NCBI RefSeq assembly: GCF_003340345.1
Contig: NZ_PPTQ01000010.1
Coordinates: 62,001 to 126,000, forward strand
Reading direction: 5' to 3'
Origin: Paraeggerthella hongkongensis
Lineage (GTDB): Bacteria > Actinomycetota > Coriobacteriia > Coriobacteriales > Eggerthellaceae
DNA length: 64,000 nt
Below the pieces are notes generated by a model, which worked only from the letters and a program-made list of their open reading frames with translations, searched no databases and was not told the origin of the DNA. This document shows, piece by piece, positions 43,632 through 64,000 of the stretch (position 1 is its first letter; every line of letters begins with the position of its first letter). The translations under genes were made by a program, and so were the position numbers.

Positions 43632-43679
43632 GGTACAATGGCGGTTCGCGAAAGACGAGAGGCAATCGAAGGACGAAAG

Positions 43680-52101: not shown

Positions 52102-52914
52102 ATGGCTATCACCTCGGCTGAGATCCACAACCAGAGCTTCTCGATCGACCGCAAGGGATACGACGTCGATGAAGTGGACGTGTTCCTCGAGCACGTTGCC
52201 GACGAGATCGATGGCATGAACGCCCAGATCATTCAGCTTGAAAACCAGCTGGATGACCGCAAGTTCGACGGGTTCGACACGCCGGCTCGCACGGTTGAGA
52301 TGCCGGTCGTCGACGACAGCCTGCTTGCCGAAAAGGACGAGCGCATCGCCGACCTGGAGCGCCAGCTTGAGGCGAAGAAGGCTGATGACAACGCCATCGC
52401 TCAGGCGCTCATCATCGCGCAGCGCTCTGCCGACGAGATTATCGCCAACGCGAACGCCCAGTCTGCGGCCACCATCAAGGATGCCGAAGAAGAGGCGCAG
52501 CGCATCATCGACAAAGCCGAGAACGAGAAGCAGAAGGTTCTCGACGCCATCAAGAAGCTCGAGGACGATCGCGAGGATTCTCGCGAGGAGTACCAGGAGC
52601 TGCTTACGGACTTCATCAGCGACGCAACGCGCAAGCTGGCCGAAATCGGCGGCTCGCTGCCTACCGGCGGCATCGCGCTGCCCGCAAGCGCTCATGCGCG
52701 CGTGTCCGCACCTGCCGAAGCGGCGTCTACGGGTCGCGTGACGTCTCCGGCGCAGGCTCCCATCAACCGCGACGGTGCGGGCGCCTACACCGCTCCTCAG
52801 CCGACGACGGGCGCGGTGGTTGCTCCGGCAACTCCCAGGCCGTCGGGCGCAGAGAAGGACCTTTCGGGCTTCGGCGACGCCGACGACGCTTTCGAGTTCG
52901 AAGATCTGGACTAG
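52102..52914 (+). CDS. divIVA: DivIVA-family polar/septal protein
   Basis: A 270-residue coiled-coil protein. The N-terminal membrane-curvature domain reads ITSAEIHNQSFSIDRKGYDVDEVDVFLEHVADEID, the DivIVA signature. A long coiled coil follows (residues ~30-190, e.g. LIIAQRSADEIIANANAQSAATIKDAEEEAQRI), then a low-complexity Ala/Pro tail. In actinobacteria DivIVA directs polar or septal growth. A terminator follows, ending the long cluster. Confidence 0.92.
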   Translation: MAITSAEIHNQSFSIDRKGYDVDEVDVFLEHVADEIDGMNAQIIQLENQLDDRKFDGFDTPARTVEMPVVDDSLLAEKDERIADLERQLEAKKADDNAIAQALIIAQRSADEIIANANAQSAATIKDAEEEAQRIIDKAENEKQKVLDAIKKLEDDREDSREEYQELLTDFISDATRKLAEIGGSLPTGGIALPASAHARVSAPAEAASTGRVTSPAQAPINRDGAGAYTAPQPTTGAVVAPATPRPSGAEKDLSGFGDADDAFEFEDLD

Positions 52915-52955
52915 TTCTTGCCGGCCTCGAGCCGGTGAACCTGCTTGACGTTGCG

Positions 52956-53051
52956 AAGCCCCCGCGCTCCGTTTCGTTGCCGCAGACCCCCGTTCGTGCG
53001 TACGTGCATGGGCAGGGATTGCGCGACGGATTCGGATGCGCGGGGGCTTTT
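52956..53051 (+). terminator. Terminator after divIVA
   Basis: AAGCCCCCGCGC (52956-52967) pairs with GCGCGGGGGCTT (53038-53049) followed by TT, with a 70-nt loop. The remaining gap to 53134 shows nothing else. Confidence 0.65.
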
Positions 53052-53134
53052 GCCGTTCCTTGGTGCCGTTTACGTTGGTTTTCAGTCTATTCCCAGGGAT
53101 TTTCCCGGTATTTGTTGCCATCTTTTGAAAACCG

Positions 53135-53165
53135 TTGACGATGACGCTACGTCATCGCTTATGCT
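53135..53165 (+). promoter_or_regulatory. MerR-type promoter (19-bp spacer with central dyad)
   Basis: -35 TTGACG (53135-53140) and -10 TATGCT (53160-53165) are separated by 19 bp. GATGACG-CTA-CGTCATC, centred between the two elements, forms a 7-bp dyad. An over-long spacer with a central dyad is the signature of MerR-activated promoters, and the next gene is a MerR regulator. Confidence 0.8.
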
Positions 53166-53243
53166 CGGACACGTGAACGCGCGGGGGCGTGTTTGCCAGG
53201 ACGAGTACGTGGCAGCCTAGCGAGCTGCCGCAAAGGAGCATCC

Positions 53244-54008
53244 ATGACCGATCCGAACTACCTGACTGTAGGAGAGCTGGCGCGGCGCGTCGGGGTGACG
53301 GTGCGCACTATCCAGTACTACGATCAGCAAGGCTTGCTGTCGCCTTCTGCGAAGGGGCCTCAAAACCAGCGCCTGTACACCGACGCCAACGTGAAAGACC
53401 TGTATCGTATTCTGACCTTGAAGTACCTGGGCTTGTCGCTCACTCAGATCAAATCCGACGCAGCTCTTTACCAGCAGGCCGCCGCGGTGCAGGATCTTGC
53501 GGATGCGCAGATGGATGCTATCGAAGAGCAGTTCCTTTCCCTGTTCAAGCGCATGACCACGCTTCGTGCGCTGCATGATGAAGCGCAGAGCGCGCAAGAC
53601 GTCGACTGGGCGCGCATGGCCGAGGCGGTCGAGCGCTGTCAGGACGAAAGCCGCTTTTTCTGGAGGCTCACCTGCATCCGCGACGACGCGCCGCCGCAGG
53701 AAGCCGAGGAGCGGATCGCTCGCGGCGAGTCCGTGTCGAAGTGGCACGAATTGATTGCCGACACCATTCGCCAGATGCCCGCGCGCGAGTCCTTGACCAG
53801 CCCGCGGAACCAGGATCTTGCGCGGCGGTACCTGGAGCTCGAGGATTCGCAGGACGCCGCCCATGCGGAAGCGAACTTCATCCTTATGGAGAACATGGCC
53901 CCGCATGCTCATGGAGACGGCTCGTTCGACGAGTTGCGCCAGGCCGTGTTCGACCACCTTGAGGCTGTGGTGGCCGCGTATCAAAACTATTCCGGGCCGG
54001 TCGAGTAG
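53244..54008 (+). CDS. MerR-family transcriptional regulator
   Basis: A 254-residue protein. The N-terminal MerR winged helix reads LTVGELARRVGVTVRTIQYYDQQGLLSPS, followed by RLYTDANVKDLYRILTLKYLGLSLTQI and the dimerisation helix. The C-terminal ~150 residues are an effector domain I cannot assign; it has few cysteines and a His-containing end (MENMAPHAHGDG). ATG 53244 follows AAAGGAG. Its promoter matches the one before the tetrapyrrole operon, and a NirJ/Ahb-like gene lies directly downstream, so haem or a tetrapyrrole is a reasonable ligand guess. Confidence 0.88.
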   Translation: MTDPNYLTVGELARRVGVTVRTIQYYDQQGLLSPSAKGPQNQRLYTDANVKDLYRILTLKYLGLSLTQIKSDAALYQQAAAVQDLADAQMDAIEEQFLSLFKRMTTLRALHDEAQSAQDVDWARMAEAVERCQDESRFFWRLTCIRDDAPPQEAEERIARGESVSKWHELIADTIRQMPARESLTSPRNQDLARRYLELEDSQDAAHAEANFILMENMAPHAHGDGSFDELRQAVFDHLEAVVAAYQNYSGPVE

Positions 54009-54018
54009 CCGTGCCGAG

Positions 54019-54083
54019 CGCGACGTTCAGGAGCGGAGACGTCTCTCCTCCATCTCCGACCCGTTCCTGAACGTCGCGGATTT
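54019..54083 (+). promoter_or_regulatory. 14-bp stem-loop between the MerR and radical SAM genes
   Basis: CGCGACGTTCAGGA (54019-54032) pairs perfectly with TCCTGAACGTCGCG (54065-54078), followed by GATTTTA. An inner GAGACGTCTC palindrome adds structure. It may be a partial terminator or attenuator reducing read-through into the radical SAM gene. Confidence 0.6.
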
Positions 54084-54158
54084 TACCCGTGTTCCAAGCT
54101 GAAGGACGGCGTGCGCCGCCCCTGGCTTTGCATACCCTGGACTTGAAAGGAACCGCCC

Positions 54159-55172
54159 ATGATCGTGTCGTGGATGACGACGAACAAGTGCAATCTCAAG
54201 TGCGTGCACTGTTACCAGGATGCCGAGGAGGCAACCGATCGGGAGCTTTCGACCGAGGAAGCCTTCGCCATGATCGAGCAGATCGCACGCGCCGGATTCA
54301 AGATCATGATCTTCTCGGGCGGCGAGCCGCTCATGCGCCCGGATATCTATCAGCTGGTGTCGCATGCGGCTTCGCTTGGCTTGCGGCCCGTGTTCGGCTC
54401 GAACGGCACGCTTATCACGCCCGAAGTGGCCCAGCGCCTCAAAGACGCGGGCGCTTGCGCCATGGGGATCAGCGTGGACAGTTTGGACGCTGCCAAACAT
54501 GACAAGTTTCGCGGGCTGGAGCATGCCTACGATCTGACGATGGGCGGCATCGAGGCATGCAAGAGCGTAGGGTTGCCGTTTCAGCTGCACACGACCGTGG
54601 TCGACTGGAACCGTGACGAGGTGTGCGACATCACCGATTTCGCCGTGCAGGCAGGCGCCATCGCCCATTACGTGTTCTTCCTCATCCCCGTCGGGCGCGG
54701 GAAGTTCATTCAGGAGACCAGCTTGCACGTGCTTGAGAACGAGCGCCTGCTCAAAGACATCATGACGAAAGCCGCCGAAGTTCCCATCGACGTGAAGCCT
54801 ACGTGCGCGCCGCAGTTCACGCGCGTGGCGAAGCAGCTTGGAGTGGACACGCGCTTCGAGCGCGGATGCCTGGCGGGGCTGACCTACTGCGTGATCGGCA
54901 GCGAGGGCATCGTGCGACCCTGCGCGTACATGACCGAGGAAGCCGGCGATGTGCGGCAGACGCCCTTCGACGAGATCTGGAGGACGAGCCCCGTGTTCGA
55001 GCAGCTGCGGACCCAGGCATATTCCGGCGCATGCGGCACCTGCGACTACGCGCAGGGCTGCGGCGGATGCCGGGCGCGTGCGGCGTACTATCACGACGGG
55101 GACATTCTGGCGCAAGACGACTATTGCGCGCACGGGCTTCAGCTGGATGATCCAATGTGCCAGCCGGCGTAG
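54159..55172 (+). CDS. Radical SAM protein of the NirJ/Ahb (haem) type
   Basis: A 337-residue iron-sulfur enzyme. The radical SAM motif CNLKCVHC is at residues ~12-19 in the NirJ2/AhbD-like start MIVSWMTTNKCNLKCVHCYQ, followed by IMIFSGGEPLMRPDI. The C-terminal part has a second cysteine cluster (RPCAYM, GACGTCDYAQGCGGC, DDYC), as in SPASM-type proteins. NirJ and AhbC/AhbD act on siroheme-derived porphyrins in haem d1 or siroheme-dependent haem synthesis. The exact step is not fixed by sequence; another SPASM maturase is the alternative. GAAAGGA precedes the ATG. It follows the MerR gene and precedes an iron/haem-type importer. Confidence 0.78.
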   Translation: MIVSWMTTNKCNLKCVHCYQDAEEATDRELSTEEAFAMIEQIARAGFKIMIFSGGEPLMRPDIYQLVSHAASLGLRPVFGSNGTLITPEVAQRLKDAGACAMGISVDSLDAAKHDKFRGLEHAYDLTMGGIEACKSVGLPFQLHTTVVDWNRDEVCDITDFAVQAGAIAHYVFFLIPVGRGKFIQETSLHVLENERLLKDIMTKAAEVPIDVKPTCAPQFTRVAKQLGVDTRFERGCLAGLTYCVIGSEGIVRPCAYMTEEAGDVRQTPFDEIWRTSPVFEQLRTQAYSGACGTCDYAQGCGGCRARAAYYHDGDILAQDDYCAHGLQLDDPMCQPA

Positions 55173-55197
55173 AGCTTGTTGGTTTTGTATAAGTATT

Positions 55198-55208
55198 TGA
55201 CCAGGTCA
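55198..55208 (+). promoter_or_regulatory. TGACC-A-GGTCA dyad before the ABC importer operon
   Basis: A perfect 5-bp dyad lies 20 nt before the start of the binding-protein gene, next to TATAAG (55188-55193). It may be an operator; the regulator is unknown. Confidence 0.4.
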
Positions 55209-55228
55209 TTCGATGAAAGGACTGTTCT

Positions 55229-56230
55229 ATGATCCAAGGCACATTTTCTCAGCGCGCGATGGCGTGCGCAGCTGCGGCGGTTTTGGCTGCATCGATGCTG
55301 CTTGCCGGATGCGCAAGCTCGGCTCCCGCCGAATCCGGCGAAACCGCTCCGGAACCTGCGGTAACCGCTGCGGGCAGCGTTACGTTCGTGGACGATACCG
55401 GCACCGAGGTGACCGTTGACAACCCGCAGCGCGTGGTGGCCTGCATGGGCAGTTTCGCAAGTGTTTGGGAGCTGGCGGGCGGTACCCTGGTGGGCGCTTC
55501 CGACGACGCGTTCACGCTTTCGAACTATGATTTGACGTCGGAGAACGTGCAGAAGGTCGGAGACTTCTCCAATCCCAACCTCGAGTCCATCATTGCGCTT
55601 GAACCTGATTTCGTCATCATGACGAGCGGCACCGGCGGGCGCGGTGGCAATTCGAGCCAAGCCGAGATCAAGGCGGCTATCGAGGCGTCGGGGATCCCGG
55701 TTGCATGCTTCCAGGTGACCACGTTCGACGACTACCTGCGCATGCTGCGCACCTGCTGCGACATAACGGGCCGCGACGATCTGTATCAGAAGAACGGCCA
55801 GGAAACCGCTGACAGGGTGGAGGCCGTCAAAGCGAAGGTGCCTGCGGACAAGTCTTCTACGGCCCTGGTCCTCACCACGTATTCGGGCGGGACGCGCGTG
55901 CAGTCGTCTTCGACCATGACCGGCGCCATGCTGGCCGATCTGGGCGTCAAGAACCTGGCCGACGAGAACCGCAGCCTGCTCAAGGATTTCAGCTTGGAAT
56001 CGGTTATCGAGATGAACCCCGATTTCATCTTCGTGGTTCCCATGGGAAACGATAACGCTGCGGCTATGAAGGCGCTCGAGGACCAGACGGCGGCGAATCC
56101 CGCATGGGCAACGCTGTCCGCCGTCGAGAACGGCCGCTATATCACGCTTGATCCCCATCTGTTCCAGTACAAGCCCAACGAGCGATGGGATCAGAGCTAC
56201 CAGGTGCTGTTCGACGCGCTGTATGCGTAA
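55229..56230 (+). CDS. ABC importer substrate-binding lipoprotein (iron/haem/cobalamin type)
   Basis: A 333-residue lipoprotein with lipobox LAGC at residues ~25-28. The mature part has the TroA/BtuF-type fold: FVDDTGTEVTVDNPQRVVACMGSFASVWELAGG near the N-terminus, NLESIIALEPDFVIM, then MNPDFIFVVPMG and the C-terminal RYITLDPHLF. It delivers a chelated metal or tetrapyrrole to the permease encoded next. The neighbouring NirJ/Ahb-like gene favours iron or haem; cobalamin or a siderophore remain possible. Confidence 0.85.
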   Translation: MIQGTFSQRAMACAAAAVLAASMLLAGCASSAPAESGETAPEPAVTAAGSVTFVDDTGTEVTVDNPQRVVACMGSFASVWELAGGTLVGASDDAFTLSNYDLTSENVQKVGDFSNPNLESIIALEPDFVIMTSGTGGRGGNSSQAEIKAAIEASGIPVACFQVTTFDDYLRMLRTCCDITGRDDLYQKNGQETADRVEAVKAKVPADKSSTALVLTTYSGGTRVQSSSTMTGAMLADLGVKNLADENRSLLKDFSLESVIEMNPDFIFVVPMGNDNAAAMKALEDQTAANPAWATLSAVENGRYITLDPHLFQYKPNERWDQSYQVLFDALYA

Positions 56231-56244
56231 AGCGAGGTTTTGAC

Positions 56245-57252
56245 GTGCGTTCTGCAGATCGGGGAGTACCGGCCTTGATTGTTTTGCTCGTGTCCGTTGC
56301 CGCCCTCGTGGCGGCAACGGTCGCTGCGTTTCTGGTAGGGTCGTCTTCGGTGAGCTTGCCCGAGCTTGTCGCCTGGGCGACGGGCGCAGATGTGAGCGCG
56401 GCCGCCAAAAGCATCTTGGTCAATGTGCGTTTGCCGCGCGTGCTCGCCGCGCTTTTGGCGGGTTCGGCGCTTGCCGTTTCCGGTGCCGTCATCCAGGCGG
56501 TGCTCGACAATCCGCTGGCAAGCCCCAACGTCATCGGCATCAACTCCGGCGCCGGCTTGTTCGTGCTGATTGCTGCGAGCGTGGCTCCGAGCATCCTGTG
56601 GCTCCCGCCGTTGGCAGCGTTTCTGGGAGCGCTTGTCACGGCGCTCATCATCTTCGGCATTTCGCTTGGCGCGAACGTGTCGCGCCTGACCGTGGTGTTG
56701 GCCGGCATCGCCATCACCACCGTGTTCGGCGCGGGCATGAACACGGTGCTCATCGTGAACCCCGATGCGTACGTGGGGTCGTCGGCGTTTTTGGTGGGCG
56801 GGTTGTCGGGAGTGCTCGTGAGCGATCTTTGGTGGCCTGCAGCGTATGTGGTGGCCGGGCTTGCTGCGGCGCTGTTCGCGGCGGGCAAGCTCAATATCAT
56901 GGCGCTCGGCGACGACACGGCTCATGCTTTGGGGATGAATGTAGGGGCCTGTCGCTTGACGATGCTCGGCTTGGCCGCCGTGCTGGCGGGCGCGGCGGTC
57001 AGCTTCGCCGGCCTGCTGGGTTTCGTGGGGTTGATCATTCCTCATCTGGTGCGGTTCTTCGTCGGTCATGACAATCGCTGGGTCTTGCCGGTTTCGGCGG
57101 TGTCGGGCGCGGCATTCGTTGTGGCGTGCGACTTGCTGGCGCGGGTGATGTTCGCTCCTTACGAGGTGCCGGTGGGCATCCTCATGGCGTTTCTGGGCGG
57201 GCCCTTCTTCATCTACCTCATTTTGAAGAACAGGAGGGGTTCCCTTGATTGA
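56245..57252 (+). CDS. ABC importer permease, FecCD family
   Basis: A 335-residue membrane protein with about ten segments. FecCD signatures are visible: VRLPRVLAALLAGSALAVSGAVIQAVLDNPLASPNVIGINSGAGLF, LGDDTAHALGMNVG and FVGLIIPHLVRFFVGHDNRWVLPVSAVSGA. GTG 56245 is the likely start, 14 nt after the binding-protein gene; an in-frame start at 56185 would lie inside that gene. It overlaps the ATPase gene by 8 nt. Confidence 0.9.
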   Translation: MRSADRGVPALIVLLVSVAALVAATVAAFLVGSSSVSLPELVAWATGADVSAAAKSILVNVRLPRVLAALLAGSALAVSGAVIQAVLDNPLASPNVIGINSGAGLFVLIAASVAPSILWLPPLAAFLGALVTALIIFGISLGANVSRLTVVLAGIAITTVFGAGMNTVLIVNPDAYVGSSAFLVGGLSGVLVSDLWWPAAYVVAGLAAALFAAGKLNIMALGDDTAHALGMNVGACRLTMLGLAAVLAGAAVSFAGLLGFVGLIIPHLVRFFVGHDNRWVLPVSAVSGAAFVVACDLLARVMFAPYEVPVGILMAFLGGPFFIYLILKNRRGSLD

Positions 57253-58183
57253 TGCGATCGATTCATCGGGTGCGTTTGGGCGGCGGGGGTCTGCTGCTCA
57301 AGCAGTCCTGCTCGCGCGAACAGCCCGCTGGGCTGTTCGGCTCGTGCGGAACTCGCCTCAGACCCCCGCCGCCCAAACGAAGGGGGCGGAATCGAAGGTC
57401 GCGGGGCCGTTTGGGGCGGCGGTGGATATTCGAGGGGTTTCGTTCTCTTATGGCAAGGAGCCGTTCATCGAGGGGTTGAGCGCTGCGTTTCCTCACGGTG
57501 CGGTGACCAGCGTGGTGGGGCCGAACGGGTGCGGCAAGTCGACTATGGTGAAGCTGATGGACGGCATAGTGCGGCCGAGTGCGGGCGAGGTGCTGATCGA
57601 CGGCGTTCCCACCTTGGGATGCAAGCCCAAAGAGCGGGCAAGGCGCGTTGCCGTGCTTGCTCAGGCCGGGCGTCCCCCGGCTATGACCGTGGAGCAGCTG
57701 GCGGCATGCGGACGCTATCCGTACCAGGCGCATCAAGGCAGGCTTTCGCGCGAGGATCGCGACCATGTTGAGCATGCGCTTGAACTTGCCGGGGTCGCGC
57801 GCTTTCGCCATCATGACCTGCGGCGCTTGTCCGGCGGAGAGCGTCAGCGCGCGTTCATCGCCATGACGTTGGCGCAGGATACCGACACCGTCGTGCTCGA
57901 CGAGCCCACCACGTACCTGGACATTCGCGCATGCCATGAGCTCATGGAGTTGGTACGACGCTTGAATCGGGAGCAGGGAAAGACCGTGGTCATGGTCATC
58001 CATGATCTTGACCTTGCGTTGCGCTATTCCGATCGGCTGCTGGTCATGGAGCGCGGGCGCGCGACGGCGGCCGGCACGGTGGACGAGGTTCTGGAAACGG
58101 GGGCTATCGAGCATGCCTTCGGAGTGCGGATACGGGAGCATGTCTCGCCCGAAGGGAGCGCGTATTCGCTGTTCCCCGCGTGA
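57245..58183 (+). CDS. ABC importer ATPase with an unusual N-terminal insertion
   Basis: A 312-residue ATPase. Walker A GPNGCGKST is at about residue 95, with Q-loop LAQAGRPP, signature LSGGERQRA, Walker B TVVLDEPTT and the switch His in VIHD. The first ~58 residues are not part of the fold; they are encoded largely by a 107-bp palindromic element (57273-57379) that keeps the frame open. TTG 57245 with AGGAGGGG upstream is the likely start; GTG 57422, just before the conserved VDIRGVSFSYG, is the alternative but has no clear ribosome-binding site. Confidence 0.85.
   Translation: MIDAIDSSGAFGRRGSAAQAVLLARTARWAVRLVRNSPQTPAAQTKGAESKVAGPFGAAVDIRGVSFSYGKEPFIEGLSAAFPHGAVTSVVGPNGCGKSTMVKLMDGIVRPSAGEVLIDGVPTLGCKPKERARRVAVLAQAGRPPAMTVEQLAACGRYPYQAHQGRLSREDRDHVEHALELAGVARFRHHDLRRLSGGERQRAFIAMTLAQDTDTVVLDEPTTYLDIRACHELMELVRRLNREQGKTVVMVIHDLDLALRYSDRLLVMERGRATAAGTVDEVLETGAIEHAFGVRIREHVSPEGSAYSLFPA
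57273..57379. repeat. 107-bp palindromic element inside the ATPase coding sequence
   Basis: Bases 57273-57293 (starting CGTTTGGGCGGCGGGGGTCT) are mirrored exactly at 57359-57379. An inner hairpin, CGAACAGCCC/GGGCTGTTCG, lies at 57317-57339. The element is translated in frame and adds ~36 residues. Confidence 0.75.
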
Positions 58184-58286
58184 TGCGACGTTCGTGCAGT
58201 TCCGCTGTCGCGCTTCCCCCGCGTCGGCGACGTTCGTGCCGCCTGCTGCCGCGCTTTTCCGTACCGGAGCCTTTCGTGCCGCCCGC

Positions 58287-58428
58287 TGTCAAAACGGACG
58301 AGTTTTGCGGCGATTTTTCGCCCTGGCGGCATCGCTCTGCTTGATGCGTTTTTCATTGTACCAGGTCACAAGCTTGTCGCCTTGTATTATCCTTGCTTGA
58401 ACATCAGCAAAACTCATCCGTTTTGACA
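58287..58428. repeat. 142-bp MITE-like element, copy B
   Basis: Same length and arrangement as 16897-17038. Terminal inverted repeats are ~22 bp, starting TGTCAAAACGGACGAG, with one mismatch; flanking CCGC and GCGG extend the pairing. Its minus strand contains TGTGACC-TGG-TACAATG. Confidence 0.78.
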
Positions 58429-58527
58429 GCGGAGTCGAATCTGCGGTCAGGCTCGGGGCTCAGGGGTGAGGGATGCGGGGCGCGGGGTAGTGGGCGGCGG
58501 GGTAGGTGCCGCGAGGTGGAAAGAAGT

Positions 58528-58887
58528 GCGAGCGGGTCGGTAAGCCGGGTTCTGTCGTTGGACGACCATTTATCTCGAACGCCTGTCGCCAGGCGCCTCA
58601 AGCACGCAACCCGAACGTACGACGGGCAGCCGTATCGCGTTCCTATTTGCGCTTGCTCCAGATGGGGTTTTCCAAGCCGCGCCGTTGCCGACGCGCTGGT
58701 GCGCTCTTACCGCACCGTTTCAGCTTTTCTCCCGTTGCCGCGCGCCGAAGCGCGTGTTCGCGGGGGAGTTTTCTTTTCTGTGGCACTGTCCGTCGGGTCG
58801 CCCCGCCCAGCCGTTAGCTGGCATCTTGCCCTGTGGAGCCCGGACTTTCCTCACATCCGAAGATGCGCGATCGTCTGGCCCGCTCGC
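58528..58887 (-). ncRNA. rnpB: RNase P RNA, bacterial type A
   Basis: Read on the minus strand, the RNA has the universal GAGGAAAGTCCGGGCTCC block near its 5' end, CAGAAAAG-type mid sequence and the 3' AGAACCCGGCTTA. The ends GCGAGCGGG and CCCGCTCGC pair as helix P1 and set the limits. It is the catalytic RNA that trims tRNA 5' ends. It lies antisense between the ABC importer and thiamin pyrophosphokinase; the ORFs overlapping it are not real genes. Confidence 0.93.
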
Positions 58888-59053
58888 GAATGGTATTCTA
58901 GCAAATCGAAAGCGGCGCGCTTGCGTGAAACTCGAAGCCCCTCGAAAAACCGATGTTTCAAGGCGATGAAGGCCGCATTGCGTCTCCTCGGTTGGGCGAG
59001 GGTTTTGCGAGCGAAGCCAAGGACTCGTTGTGGAGCTCTGCGTTTGCGCGCTA

Positions 59054-59062
59054 TGCTATGCT
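59054..59062 (+). promoter_or_regulatory. Extended -10 promoter for the thiamin pyrophosphokinase gene
   Basis: TG-C-TATGCT lies 39 nt before the start codon. No strong -35 is seen. Confidence 0.45.
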
Positions 59063-59101
59063 GACAGGTCGAACGACAACGATGCGAAAAGGACGGACGA
59101 T

Positions 59102-59746
59102 ATGGCGGCTTGCGCTTTGGTGGGGGCGATCGATTTCAACGCAGATGATTTTCTCGCACGGCGCGAATCGGGCGAGATCGAGTATGTGATCGCCGTCGAC
59201 GGAGGCTTCGCGCATCTAGAGGGCATCGGCGTGGCTCCCGATATGGCCGTGGGCGACTTCGATTCGCTTGGATACGTGCCGAAGTGCAAGCGCGTATCCC
59301 GTTATCCCGTGCAAAAGGATCAGAGCGACATGGAGCTGGCCATCGAGAAAGCCCTGGCATGGCGCTACGACGAGTTGCTGGTGTACGGCGGATTGGGCGG
59401 GCGGCTCGACCATACCGTTGCGAACCTGCAGTTGTTCGCGCGCTTCTCAGAGCAGGGCGCCTATATCACGGCCATAGCCGATTCGTACGCGGTGCGCCTG
59501 CTGACCGGTCCGGACGTGTTCGAGTTGCCGCTCCTTGAATTCGGGACGGTGTCGGTGTTCGCCGCCAATGATCGGGCTGAGGGCGTCATCGAGCGCGGCA
59601 TGGCCTACTCCCTTGACGACGAGCCGCTTTCGAACCGCACGTCGCGCGGCCTTTCCAACGAGTTGACGGGCGAACCGGCAACTGTGGCCGTCGAATCGGG
59701 CACGCTGTACGTGTTCTACCCGCTATCGGAGGCTGTTCGCAACTAG
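59102..59746 (+). CDS. Thiamin pyrophosphokinase
   Basis: A 214-residue cytoplasmic enzyme converting thiamin to thiamin diphosphate. The family motifs are present: VIAVDGGFAHL, APDMAVGDFDSLG, KDQSDMELAIEKAL and GGLGGRLDHTVANLQL. The C-terminal domain ends LSNRTSRGLSNEL and GTLYVFYP. ATG 59102 is chosen for the AAGGACGG upstream; an in-frame ATG at 59030 would lie upstream of the promoter. A single gene with no obvious operon partner. Confidence 0.9.
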   Translation: MAACALVGAIDFNADDFLARRESGEIEYVIAVDGGFAHLEGIGVAPDMAVGDFDSLGYVPKCKRVSRYPVQKDQSDMELAIEKALAWRYDELLVYGGLGGRLDHTVANLQLFARFSEQGAYITAIADSYAVRLLTGPDVFELPLLEFGTVSVFAANDRAEGVIERGMAYSLDDEPLSNRTSRGLSNELTGEPATVAVESGTLYVFYPLSEAVRN

Positions 59747-59993
59747 CGCCGTTCGCGCGGGGCGTCGGAGTAGTTGTTCGGGCGTCCTTTTGAAAGCGGC
59801 ATTGCTTCGTCGCTGTTGTTTTCGCGTGGAACGTTCTAGGGAAGACTTCCGATCGTTTCGAACGTGCGCTCCTCTTCTTCGCGCGTTATCTACAATGCTT
59901 GCGGACGTTTGTTCGATCCGCTTCTTTCGTTGTGCGGGAATGCGGTCGCAAAACGTGCGTCCCGCATGTAGCAAATCTCTTTCAAAAAGATGG

Positions 59994-60024
59994 TTGACGG
60001 CGACGTTGCGTCATGTCTTATGCT
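59994..60024 (+). promoter_or_regulatory. MerR-type promoter of the tetrapyrrole operon
   Basis: -35 TTGACG (59994-59999), a 19-bp spacer with GACG-TTG-CGTC (60002-60012), and -10 TATGCT (60019-60024). Both hexamers, the spacer length and the dyad core are the same as at 53135-53165. About 210 nt of leader follow before the first gene. 59747-59990 shows no other feature. Confidence 0.8.
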
Positions 60025-60063
60025 GCGCTTGCGGTCGATCGAGAATCGACTGAAGACGATGGC

Positions 60064-60088
60064 CCTTGTGCTTTAAGAAAGCGCAAGG
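60064..60088 (+). promoter_or_regulatory. Leader hairpin of the tetrapyrrole operon
   Basis: CCTTGTGCTTT (60064-60074) pairs with AAAGCGCAAGG (60078-60088) around AAG with one G-U pair. It lies early in the untranslated leader. No known riboswitch is recognised. Confidence 0.45.
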
Positions 60089-60227
60089 CGAAAGACGAGA
60101 ATCCGAGACAAGTTCAAACGAGGTTCGAAACGAACCGAAGAGTCGACGTGCGCGGCTTGGGCATTCGTGTGTCTTCATGTGCGAAAAGCAGGGCGGTTGT
60201 GCTGATCGCTGGGAAAGGAGACCAGTT

Positions 60228-60314
60228 ATGAGGAGGTCGTATGGACAACTCAGTTGCGGTGTGTGCTCCGGAAAAGCCGCGTACGTGTACGCCGTATTAT
60301 CCAGTGTTTCTTGA
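60228..60314 (+). CDS. Possible 28-residue upstream ORF overlapping the next gene start
   Basis: ATG 60228 has AAAGGAG about 9 nt upstream, better than average for this window. The frame reads MRRSYGQLSCGVCSGKAAYV... and ends at 60314, overlapping the siroheme-domain gene (60241) in a different frame. Its AGGAGG codons double as the ribosome-binding site of that gene. It may be a leader peptide or simply a chance ORF. Confidence 0.3.
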   Translation: MRRSYGQLSCGVCSGKAAYVYAVLSSVS

Positions 60315-60957
60315 CGTACGGGGACGTTTTACCGTTGTGGTAGGCGGTGGAAGTGTTGCCGAGCGGAAAGTGGACGGGCTTTTGAAGGCGGGTGCACGCG
60401 TACGCGTTGTGTCTCCTGACGTTACGGCGGGCCTGGAAGTTCGGGTGAACGAGGGTTCGGTGACGCTTGAGCGACGTCTTTATGGCGAAGGTGATCTGAA
60501 AGGGGCGTTCCTCGTGTACGCCGCAACCGACGACGCGGCAATCAACGAAGCTGTTTATGCCGAAGCCGAGGCGCGCGGTGTTCTGGCCAACGTCGCGGAC
60601 GATCCGCAGCACTGCAATTTTATCGTGCCGTCCGTTGCTCGACGCGGATCACTGCAGTTTGCCGTATCTACTGGCGGCGCTGCGCCGGTGCTGGCGAAGC
60701 GTTTGCGATGCGAGTTGGAAGAGCGTTATTCGGATGATTGGGCGGTATACACGGATTTACTGTCTGAAGTGCGAATGCTCGTTCGCGATCGTATCTCGGG
60801 GGGCGAAACCGAGCGCGCTGCCGTGCTCGAGGCGGCATGTGATCTGGGGTTGCTCGGTCGTCTTCGCGCCGGCGAGGTTCTTGATGCGGAATCGGTTTAC
60901 ATCGAAGCTCTCGATGCCGCCGACGAGTCGGGCTTTAAGGCTGGCGAATCGCGATGA
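60241..60957 (+). CDS. Precorrin-2 dehydrogenase / sirohydrochlorin ferrochelatase domain protein
   Basis: A 238-residue protein equivalent to the N-terminal half of CysG (Met8/SirC type). It starts with PVFLDVRGRFTVVVGGGSVAERKVDGLLKAGARVRVVSP, the NAD-binding signature, then AATDDAAINEAVYAEAEARGVLANVADDPQHCNFIVPS and FAVSTGGAAPVLAKRLR. It oxidises precorrin-2 to sirohydrochlorin and may insert iron to make siroheme. AGGAGG lies 4 nt before the ATG. Its stop overlaps the hemA start. Confidence 0.9.
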   Translation: MDNSVAVCAPEKPRTCTPYYPVFLDVRGRFTVVVGGGSVAERKVDGLLKAGARVRVVSPDVTAGLEVRVNEGSVTLERRLYGEGDLKGAFLVYAATDDAAINEAVYAEAEARGVLANVADDPQHCNFIVPSVARRGSLQFAVSTGGAAPVLAKRLRCELEERYSDDWAVYTDLLSEVRMLVRDRISGGETERAAVLEAACDLGLLGRLRAGEVLDAESVYIEALDAADESGFKAGESR

Positions 60958-62375
60958 TGCTTTTGTCTGCCGGCGTGAGCCATGCAAGCGCTTCCGTAGA
61001 GCTGCGGGAAAAGCTGGTTGTACCTTCCGAAAAACTGAACGTTGCCCTTGAGTGCCTTGTTTCGAATGACGTGGTGTCGGAGGCGGTCGTTCTGTCCACG
61101 TGCAACCGCACCGAGGTGTATGCGACGGTTGTCACCGTGACTGATGGAATACGAGCTATCTTTGATTTTCTACAGGGTCTTCCTGGCATGAAAGACGCCG
61201 ATACGGAAGCGCTTGCCCAGGCTCTTGTCGTGAAGCAGGGTCCGGGAGCGGTGGAGCATTTGTTTCGAGTTGCTTCGTCGCTTGATTCAATCGTGCTTGG
61301 CGAAGCTCAGATCATCGGCCAGGTAAGGCGCGCGTTTGCGGCCGCCGAAAGCGCTGGTGCGGTGGGCGAGGTGACGCGCCGGCTGTTTCGCAGCGCTCTC
61401 GAAGTTGGAAAGCGCGTGCGGGATCAGACGGCTATCGGTTGTCGTTCGGTGTCGATTTCCACGGCTGCGGTTCAACTTGCCGAACGAGAGCTGGGGACGT
61501 TGGACGGACGAAGAGCGCTTGTGGTGGGCGCCGGCGAAATGGGAATGCTTGCTCTCGGGTACCTCAAAGAGCGTGGAGTGGAAAACATTACGGTGGTTAA
61601 TCGCACGTTCAAGCGTGCGAGAGAAGCTGCAGCTCGTGTGGGTGGCAAATCGGTGAAAATCGACCAGTTGGAGAAGGAGCTTGCCCGAGCCGATCTGGTG
61701 GTTGCTTGCGCTGGCGGCGAAGAGTTGCTGGTGACTCGTGCCATGATGTCTCGTTCGTTGAAGAAGCGGATCGATGGATCGCACCGTCTTGTGACGGTGG
61801 ATGTGGGGATGCCTCGAGCGGTCGACCCCGAATGTGCGCGCATGGAAGGGATCGTTTGCTTTGATCTTGATGATATTGGCGCAGAAGCAGCCGGCAACGC
61901 TCGTATTCGCGCAGCGGAATCGGTGCGAGCGGAAGCTCTTGTAGCTGAACAGGTTGACGACTTCCTTTCTTGGATGCAAGAGCAAGTGGTGACTCCTACG
62001 GTGAAGCAGATGCATGGCAAGGCTCGTGACGTGTGCGAGCTGGAAGTTGCTCGCGCCGCTAAAGCGCTTGCCGCGCTTCGGGAGGGCGCGTTGTCTGACG
62101 GCGAGCGCGCGGTGCTTGATTCGCTTGCGAACGCTGTGGCGAAAAAACTGCTTCATGGACCCACGGCCCGCTTGCGCAAGCAAGCAAGCGATCCTGACGC
62201 TTACCGTTATACCGAAGCCGCACGCTATCTGTTCGGTCTTGACGCGTACCCGCAGGGATTCTCATGCCGCAGCGACGATGGCCGCATGTGTCGACTGTCC
62301 TCCGGCTCTGCTTGCGCTCGTCGCGGTTGCGGTGCATGCCCTCATGACCGAAAGGATGCTCCATGCCTTGTTTGA
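60954..62375 (+). CDS. hemA: Glutamyl-tRNA reductase with a cysteine-rich C-terminal tail
   Basis: A 473-residue NADPH enzyme, the first committed step of C5-pathway tetrapyrrole synthesis. The catalytic Cys50 is in VVLSTCNRTEVYA, with SSLDSIVLGEAQIIGQVR and the Rossmann motif ALVVGAGEMGMLALGYL. The dimerisation helices follow. The last ~35 residues are an extra tail with six cysteines, including CGACPHD, which holds both a CxxC and a Cys-Pro haem-regulatory-type motif. The end overlaps hemC by 13 nt. Confidence 0.93.
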   Translation: MMLLSAGVSHASASVELREKLVVPSEKLNVALECLVSNDVVSEAVVLSTCNRTEVYATVVTVTDGIRAIFDFLQGLPGMKDADTEALAQALVVKQGPGAVEHLFRVASSLDSIVLGEAQIIGQVRRAFAAAESAGAVGEVTRRLFRSALEVGKRVRDQTAIGCRSVSISTAAVQLAERELGTLDGRRALVVGAGEMGMLALGYLKERGVENITVVNRTFKRAREAAARVGGKSVKIDQLEKELARADLVVACAGGEELLVTRAMMSRSLKKRIDGSHRLVTVDVGMPRAVDPECARMEGIVCFDLDDIGAEAAGNARIRAAESVRAEALVAEQVDDFLSWMQEQVVTPTVKQMHGKARDVCELEVARAAKALAALREGALSDGERAVLDSLANAVAKKLLHGPTARLRKQASDPDAYRYTEAARYLFGLDAYPQGFSCRSDDGRMCRLSSGSACARRGCGACPHDRKDAPCLV

Positions 62376-63346
62376 AAATAGGCTCTCGTGGCAGCGAACT
62401 TGCTTTGTGGCAGGCTCATCACGTTGCCGACCGTTTGCGCCTTGTCCGTCCGGATATCCAGGTCGAGATCGAGGTCGTGAAGACCAAAGGAGATCGGGTT
62501 CTCGATGTGGCTTTGTCAAAAATAGGTGACAAAGGGCTGTTTACGAAAGAGCTCGAGCAAGCCTTGCTCGATGGTCGTGTAGACGTATGCGTTCACTCCA
62601 TGAAAGACGTTCCCACGGTGCTGCCGGAAGGTCTTGTGCTTGCGGGGTGCTTGGAACGAGCGGATGCCCGCGATGCCCTCGTTGCCGTGCCGGGCGCGAC
62701 GTTCGCTTCCTTGCCTTCCGGCGCGCGTGTGGGAACGGGTGCTCTTCGTCGTCTTGCTCAGCTGAGAGCGGTGCGCGACGATCTCGAGTACATGGAGGTT
62801 CGAGGGAACCTGGATACCCGGATAGCTAAAGTGCGCGATGGATCGCTTGACGCTATCGTTTTGGCCGCCGCTGGGATAAAGCGTATGGGTTGGGAGCGCG
62901 AAATCGTCGAAGCATTCCCTGTCGACGTTGTGGTTCCCGCCGTAGGGCAGGGGGCGATTGGGCTCGAGATACGCGCTGATGACGAAGCCGTAGCTCGCGT
63001 TTGCGCTCTTGTGTGCGATGCGGTCACCAACGTATGCGTGACGGCTGAACGCTGCGTCATGCGCGCTCTCGATGGAGGGTGCCAGGTACCCCTGGGAGCC
63101 TATGCCCGCTTCGAAGGCCCTGAACTGGTTCTCGACGCGTTTGCGGGGAGATTGGACGGCACTCTCGCATTGAGGAGTCGGCTGCGCACGAAGCTTTCGC
63201 AGCCTGGCTGCCTTGTCGAAACCGAGCAGGCTGTGCGTGAGGCTCGTGCGCTCGCCCTTGCAGCCGTGGAGGATCTTGAGTCTCTTGGAGCGCGCGCTGT
63301 TCTTGACGAGGCGCGTGTTGCAGGCGATGAAAGGCGGCTTGCATGA
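62363..63346 (+). CDS. hemC: Hydroxymethylbilane synthase
   Basis: A 327-residue cytoplasmic enzyme that polymerises four porphobilinogens. It shows RGSELALWQAHHVADRL, KTKGDRVLDVALSKIGDKGLFTKELE, VHSMKDVPTVLP, VRGNLDTRIAKVRDG and the dipyrromethane-cofactor Cys in ALDGGCQVPLGAYA. GAAAGGA upstream lies within hemA. Its stop overlaps the ATG of the next gene. Confidence 0.95.
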   Translation: MPCLKIGSRGSELALWQAHHVADRLRLVRPDIQVEIEVVKTKGDRVLDVALSKIGDKGLFTKELEQALLDGRVDVCVHSMKDVPTVLPEGLVLAGCLERADARDALVAVPGATFASLPSGARVGTGALRRLAQLRAVRDDLEYMEVRGNLDTRIAKVRDGSLDAIVLAAAGIKRMGWEREIVEAFPVDVVVPAVGQGAIGLEIRADDEAVARVCALVCDAVTNVCVTAERCVMRALDGGCQVPLGAYARFEGPELVLDAFAGRLDGTLALRSRLRTKLSQPGCLVETEQAVREARALALAAVEDLESLGARAVLDEARVAGDERRLA

Positions 63347-64000
63347 CAACGCCAAAGCCGATCGGTCGCGTAGAGGTCTTTCTCGTGGGTGCAGGGCCGG
63401 GAGATCCTGGCTTAATGACGGTGGCGGGCGCCGCCGCGCTCAAACGCGCCGATGTCGTGGTGTACGACTATTTGGCAAATCCCCTGCTTCTGGCGCATGC
63501 GCCCGGCTCTTCCGAGTGCGTATACGTGGGGAAGAAGGGTTTTTCGAATCACGTAACCCAAAACGAGATCAACAGCTTGCTCGTTGACAAGGCTCGCCGG
63601 CTTGAAGCGCGCGGCGGCGGGGTGCTCGTCCGCCTCAAGGGCGGCGATCCGTTCGTGTTTGGTCGAGGCGGCGAAGAGGCCGCCGCGCTCCGCGATGCCG
63701 GCGTGGCTTGCTCGATCATTCCGGGCGTAACGAGCGGGATTGCTGCGCCGGCGTATGCAGGCGTGCCGGTTACGCATCGTGGCATGGCATCGTCGGTCGC
63801 GTTCATCGCGGGAAGCGAGGATCCGACAAAAGACGAGTCCTCCCTCGACTGGGAGGGCATCGCGCACGGCGCGGACACGTTGTGCTTTTACATGGGCGTC
63901 CGAAACTTGCCCCTCATCTCCCGCAAGCTCATGGAGGCTGGCCGGGATCCGGAAACGCCCGTTATGCTCGTACGTTGGGCGACGACGCCTGATCAAGAGG
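63343..64000 (+). CDS. cobA: Uroporphyrinogen-III C-methyltransferase, 5' part
   Basis: At least 219 residues, cut by the window end. The SAM-dependent methyltransferase signatures are VFLVGAGPGDPGLMTVAGAAAL, VVYDYLANPLLL, VRLKGGDPFVFGRGGEEA and IPGVTSGIAAPAYAGVPVTHRG. It makes precorrin-2, the branch to siroheme, B12 and siroheme-derived haem. A HemD domain may be fused beyond the edge, as in many Firmicutes and actinobacteria. ATG 63343 overlaps the hemC stop. Confidence 0.93.
   Translation, partial: MTTPKPIGRVEVFLVGAGPGDPGLMTVAGAAALKRADVVVYDYLANPLLLAHAPGSSECVYVGKKGFSNHVTQNEINSLLVDKARRLEARGGGVLVRLKGGDPFVFGRGGEEAAALRDAGVACSIIPGVTSGIAAPAYAGVPVTHRGMASSVAFIAGSEDPTKDESSLDWEGIAHGADTLCFYMGVRNLPLISRKLMEAGRDPETPVMLVRWATTPDQE

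Follow-up and report, generated by a model that had tools for sequence, protein, structure and literature searches.

The 64-kb window (the whole stretch of DNA that we analysed) holds merR, a gene for a MerR-family regulator. Downstream of merR are an ahbD-type gene and the genes of a haem/siderophore-type ABC importer, and a haem operon begins about 6 kb from merR (Table 1). The merR, ahbD and importer genes are probably one operon with merR as its first gene.

Table 1. Positions of the features in the window that bear on the merR promoter and the haem genes.
Feature	Position	Strand	Remarks
MerR-type promoter of merR	53135..53165	+	TTGACG, 19-nt spacer, TATGCT
Dyad CGATGACG-CTA-CGTCATCG	53139-53157	none	predicted operator of MerR dimer; kept in orthologues
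merR, MerR-family regulator	53244..54008	+	254 aa; AlbA/TipAS-like C-terminal domain
Stable hairpin between merR and ahbD	54017..54078	+	z -3.6
ahbD-type gene, NirJ2-type radical SAM/SPASM protein	54159..55172	+	TIGR04055 521 bits, above cut-off
Substrate-binding protein, haem/siderophore-type ABC importer	55229..56230	+	PF01497; IsdE model match below cut-off
FecCD-type permease	56185..57252	+	PF01032
ABC transporter ATPase	57245..58183	+	PF00005
RNase P RNA (class A)	58525-58886	minus	284 bits; between importer and thiamine pyrophosphokinase gene
Second promoter, TTGACG-GCGACGTTGCGTCATGTCT-TATGCT	59994..60024	+	same pattern, before haem operon
met8/sirC, precorrin-2 dehydrogenase	60241..60957	+	first haem operon gene; TIGR01470 above cut-off
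hemA, glutamyl-tRNA reductase	60954..62375	+	
hemC, hydroxymethylbilane synthase	62363..63346	+	
cobA-hemD, start	63343..64000	+	continues past window

The merR promoter and the genes behind it

We examined the sequence upstream of merR. The -35 hexamer TTGACG (53135-53140) and the -10 hexamer TATGCT (53160-53165) enclose the spacer ATGACGCTACGTCATCGCT, which is exactly 19 nt long (53141-53159), as a preliminary description of this DNA had read it. That description also gave a centred dyad, GATGACG-CTA-CGTCATC. The dyad is present, but its exact arms are one base pair longer on each side, and it begins inside the -35 hexamer, with which it shares two bases. It does lie between the hexamers; its centre (53148), however, precedes that of the spacer (53150) by 2 bp, as in CueR and CadR promoters, and is 7 bp from the -35 box. 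The promoter thus resembles those of the MerR, CueR and CadR systems in its 19-bp spacer (19–20 bp in theirs), in the dyad between the hexamers and in the 7 bp to the dyad centre (PMC5045206; PMC9909328), the last being the distance known from CueR and CadR sites (PMC5045206). A dyad inside a 19–20 bp spacer between the -35 and -10 boxes is what marks a MerR-activated promoter, and this is the arrangement found here. The promoter ends 78 nt before the merR start codon (ATG at 53244), and transcription is predicted to begin at about 53169-53172. A promoter scan of the window with spacers of 16–18 nt did not report the merR site, as is to be expected of a spacer of 19 nt.

We asked whether a dyad had merely arisen by chance near a promoter-like sequence. 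Dyads of 8+8 alone are common enough to make the question fair, as a first-order Markov model of the 64-kb window predicted about two and five were seen. For a dyad of at least 6+6 within a 19-spaced promoter, however, the same model predicted 0.03 occurrences per 64 kb, and one was seen. The site is also kept across genera while its flanks differ, and a control search with the reversed pattern returned none. On the expected number and the control we rejected a chance origin, which the conservation also contradicts and which we regard as extremely improbable.

The site was found, in the same arrangement, upstream of every close merR orthologue examined. These orthologue sites come from Eggerthella, Gordonibacter, Rubneribacter and Raoultibacter, and the DNA around them differs. 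The closest named genome is that of P. hongkongensis, whose MerR protein is 99% identical, which assigns the window to a gut bacterium of the genus Paraeggerthella (family Eggerthellaceae). The dyad in P. hongkongensis is even longer (GGCGATGACGTAACGTCATCGCC). In Gordonibacter pamelaeae 7-10-1-b the merR orthologue contains one in-frame stop and the promoter is intact. Taken together, the promoter geometry, the dyad, the adjoining MerR gene and the conservation across genera support the earlier reading of 53135-53165 as a MerR-activated autoregulatory promoter, a typical one of a familiar kind.

The hairpin between merR and ahbD is a possible partial terminator or processing site, and may separate ahbD from the merR promoter. 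Its loop is CU-rich (TCTCTCCTCC), and similar hairpins with CU-rich loops occur in Gordonibacter and Eggerthella relatives. The ahbD-type protein scored above the cut-off of the NirJ2 model, and its 322 bits against the AhbD model (TIGR04545) fell below that model's cut-off of 500. AhbD enzymes convert Fe-coproporphyrin III into haem (PMC10452713).

A second copy of the site before the haem operon

We searched the 2.86-Mb genome for the full pattern, TTGACN-RYGACGNNNCGTCRYNNNN-TANNNT, and used the reversed pattern as a control. Exactly two copies were found, one before merR and one before the haem operon; the reversed pattern had no copies in the genome. At the second site (59994) the dyad is imperfect and retains a 4+4 exact core. 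The operon that follows has the order met8-hemA-hemC-cobA/hemD-ahbC-hemB-ahbAB-hemL, with ahbC, hemB, an ahbA-ahbB fusion and hemL lying beyond the window. These are genes of the sirohaem-dependent haem route. Models for AhbA, AhbB and AhbC all scored above cut-off in this genome, and the AhbD role would be taken by the NirJ2-type protein described above, whose gene is the only AhbD-like one in the genome and would supply the last gene missing from the haem operon. The finding of another such promoter in front of haem genes strengthens the hint of haem, iron or porphyrins in the preliminary description.

We also looked for RNA elements in the leaders. A comparison of positions 52900-60400 with Rfam revealed neither a known riboswitch nor a known leader RNA; it returned only the RNase P RNA and sub-threshold chance matches. 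The motif GACGAG follows the promoter in 18 of 27 merR and met8 leaders (1.7 expected), and in the leaders of merR and hem genes AGACGAG often comes immediately behind a GC-rich hairpin (60060-60105 in the window). GACGAG at first resembled a shared haem RNA element, but we do not regard it as specific to haem, as it also occurs before another gene at 43653 (43650-43660); AGACGAG is perhaps a general leader element.

Sites across the Eggerthellaceae

A scan of 137 Eggerthellaceae genomes, allowing at most one mismatch, returned 73 sites in 49 genomes, and the reversed pattern returned none in the same 137 genomes. All 37 exact sites were assigned to genes by position or reading frame. Most of them (23) precede merR-type genes, eight precede met8/hem operons and three precede ahbD, and the rest lie before ahbC, a DUF454 membrane protein gene and a flavodoxin gene (one each). 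In genera whose ahbD has a promoter of its own, as seen at seven loci, it too belongs to this type. The spacer is strictly 19 bp in merR, ahbD and hem sites alike. All six genomes that encode both AhbC and a NirJ2-type AhbD have an exact site before the hem operon, and many AhbC-positive Eggerthellaceae have no site at one mismatch. Outside the Eggerthellaceae, about 220 genomes of the class yielded one exact site, before a merR-ahbD-importer cluster. A contig of the Collinsella sp. AK_207A assembly carries a Raoultibacter-like cluster of this kind, either through transfer or because the contig was mis-binned. Same-type sites precede genes for DUF454 (YbaN-like) membrane proteins in three genomes, which links a family of unassigned role to haem metabolism.

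The positions that the pattern leaves free were informative as well. A Y-W-R core was present in 38 of 39 tallied sites, so the motif exceeds what the search pattern had put into it, and a G ends the -35 box in 27 of the 39. The core GACG-NNN-CGTC, on the other hand, also precedes other MerR-type genes of the Eggerthellaceae (at four loci) and, with two mismatches, an MFS-type gene in the genome of the window. Thus, the dyad alone does not fix specificity, which would rest on the whole consensus, and the earlier statement that this promoter predicts the regulator's DNA site exactly was too strong.

Because other MerR genes share the dyad core, another MerR protein could serve the second site. 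That is, the merR promoter might be plainly autoregulatory, with a paralogous MerR protein that recognises similar sites acting before the haem operon, in which case our regulator would not control haem synthesis directly; the genome has seven MerR-like matches, and the shared core was seen at other MerR-type promoters of the family. We nevertheless consider this unlikely. The genome has no more than two copies of the exact pattern, a single consensus describes merR, ahbD and hem sites that co-occur in the same genomes, and merR adjoins ahbD at a short distance from the hem operon.

The genes behind these promoters are not distributed evenly. A NirJ2-type AhbD together with a haem/siderophore-type importer is found in about 44 of the 137 genomes, and AhbC is present in only six of those; the remaining AhbC-positive genomes have a different AhbD that is about 40% identical. 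Because AhbD makes haem from Fe-coproporphyrin III and AhbC is mostly absent, one may reasonably guess that the AhbC-less genomes with a NirJ2-type AhbD and the importer serve to salvage coprohaem.

The regulator and a model of haem control

The N-terminal part of the regulator is a MerR winged helix-turn-helix, with PF13411 (4.9e-18) and PF00376 (2.9e-13) each scoring above cut-off. Its nearest folds are those of TipAL and MtaN (Z 12.8 for the TipAL N-terminal domain, VIA-align). It is followed, as in the MerR family, by a long helix (residues 79–116 in the predicted model) that is a putative dimerisation helix. The profile of the C-terminal half matched the drug-binding protein AlbA (E 5e-10), and the Pfam TipAS model was not significant (best 0.03 among members). 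AlbA and TipAS were among the best matches to the predicted C-terminal fold, though weak ones (Z 5–6); the full-length fold search was dominated by the N-terminal MerR domain, and the matches of the C-terminal model stayed at Z below 8, so we base no statement about fold on structure by itself. Globin folds also appeared for the C-terminal model (Z about 4), and we did not count them as evidence of haem binding. Invariant C-terminal residues include W122, W140, W167, H168 and R195; a His-rich loop in some orthologues is not conserved. With equivalog models of the metal sensors CueR, ZntR, CadR and MerR, the highest score was 56.9 bits (cut-off 151). The regulator differs from those systems in scores far below cut-off, and in predicted targets that are haem-synthesis genes where theirs are metal resistance genes.

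The TipAL/SkgA/AlbA group consists of proteins that combine a MerR-type helix-turn-helix with a TipAS-like ligand domain, or that have this domain by itself. The protein resembles this group in the fold of its helix-turn-helix (nearest to TipAL and MtaN) and perhaps, from the AlbA profile match, in its C-terminal half. It departs from that group in its non-significant match to TipAS and in a predicted regulon of tetrapyrrole metabolism rather than antibiotic response. The AlbA match, with the weaker one to TipAS, would suit a regulator that senses a drug or toxic compound as its TipA/AlbA relatives do and that reaches the haem genes as targets of a stress response. We doubt this explanation, as nearly all sites lie before tetrapyrrole genes or merR and none of the exact ones precedes a drug pump gene.

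Our data favour an autoregulated, one-component MerR activator that would control both merR-ahbD-importer and the hem operon through the two sites, and we think this the likely arrangement. In MerR systems a dimer sits on an over-long spacer and ligand-driven distortion of the DNA activates transcription (PMC9909328). By analogy with that family, a MerR dimer bound to the dyad would occupy the over-long 19-bp spacer and hold the promoter in a weak state. Binding of a ligand to the AlbA/TipAS-like C-terminal domain would then distort the DNA, allowing RNA polymerase to use both hexamers. The same regulator would act at 59994-60024 and so switch the entire haem operon; from the shared pattern we infer that it binds both predicted sites. 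Sirohaem-dependent haem synthesis, with AhbD as its last enzyme, and haem- or porphyrin-like uptake would in this way be coordinated together, and control of haem/porphyrin uptake by the merR regulator is probable. Because of the genes controlled, the signal could be a tetrapyrrole such as coprohaem or haem, our foremost candidate, to which we give roughly even weight.

Could the regulator instead be mainly a repressor, released or strengthened by haem and working without MerR-type activation? Given a dyad placed between the hexamers, whatever protein binds there could obstruct polymerase, and end-product repression would suit a biosynthetic operon. The strict 19-bp spacer of the merR, ahbD and hem sites is, however, a hallmark of activation by distortion (PMC9909328), and we judge a mainly repressing role to be improbable.

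In controlling haem synthesis, uptake or export, the proposed activator would resemble the haem-status regulators HrtR, Irr, HrrSA/ChrSA and HbrL. Those belong to other protein families, whereas this regulator is a MerR protein. The haem regulators of bacteria that a 2024 review names include no MerR protein (PMC11442138), nor does a MerR regulator figure in a review of how Gram-positive bacteria control haem synthesis (PMC10991733). In the open-licence literature we found neither a MerR protein that regulates haem or porphyrin genes nor a description of a dedicated regulator of the sirohaem-dependent haem route. The haem regulon of a MerR-type regulator thus appears to be new, while the kind of promoter is already known.

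A broader possibility, which we put forward tentatively and would not call probable, is that in gut Eggerthellaceae a MerR-type one-component sensor reads a tetrapyrrole (coprohaem or haem) through its AlbA/TipAS-like domain. It would couple salvage, with the NirJ2-type AhbD making haem from Fe-coproporphyrin brought in by the ABC importer, to the de novo sirohaem-dependent route, and the majority of these bacteria would retain salvage only. Eggerthellaceae that have the AhbD-type enzyme and the importer, and no AhbC, may live on the haem precursors of others. With the predicted regulon, an anonymous regulator becomes a candidate switch for haem status in gut anaerobes that can be put to the test.
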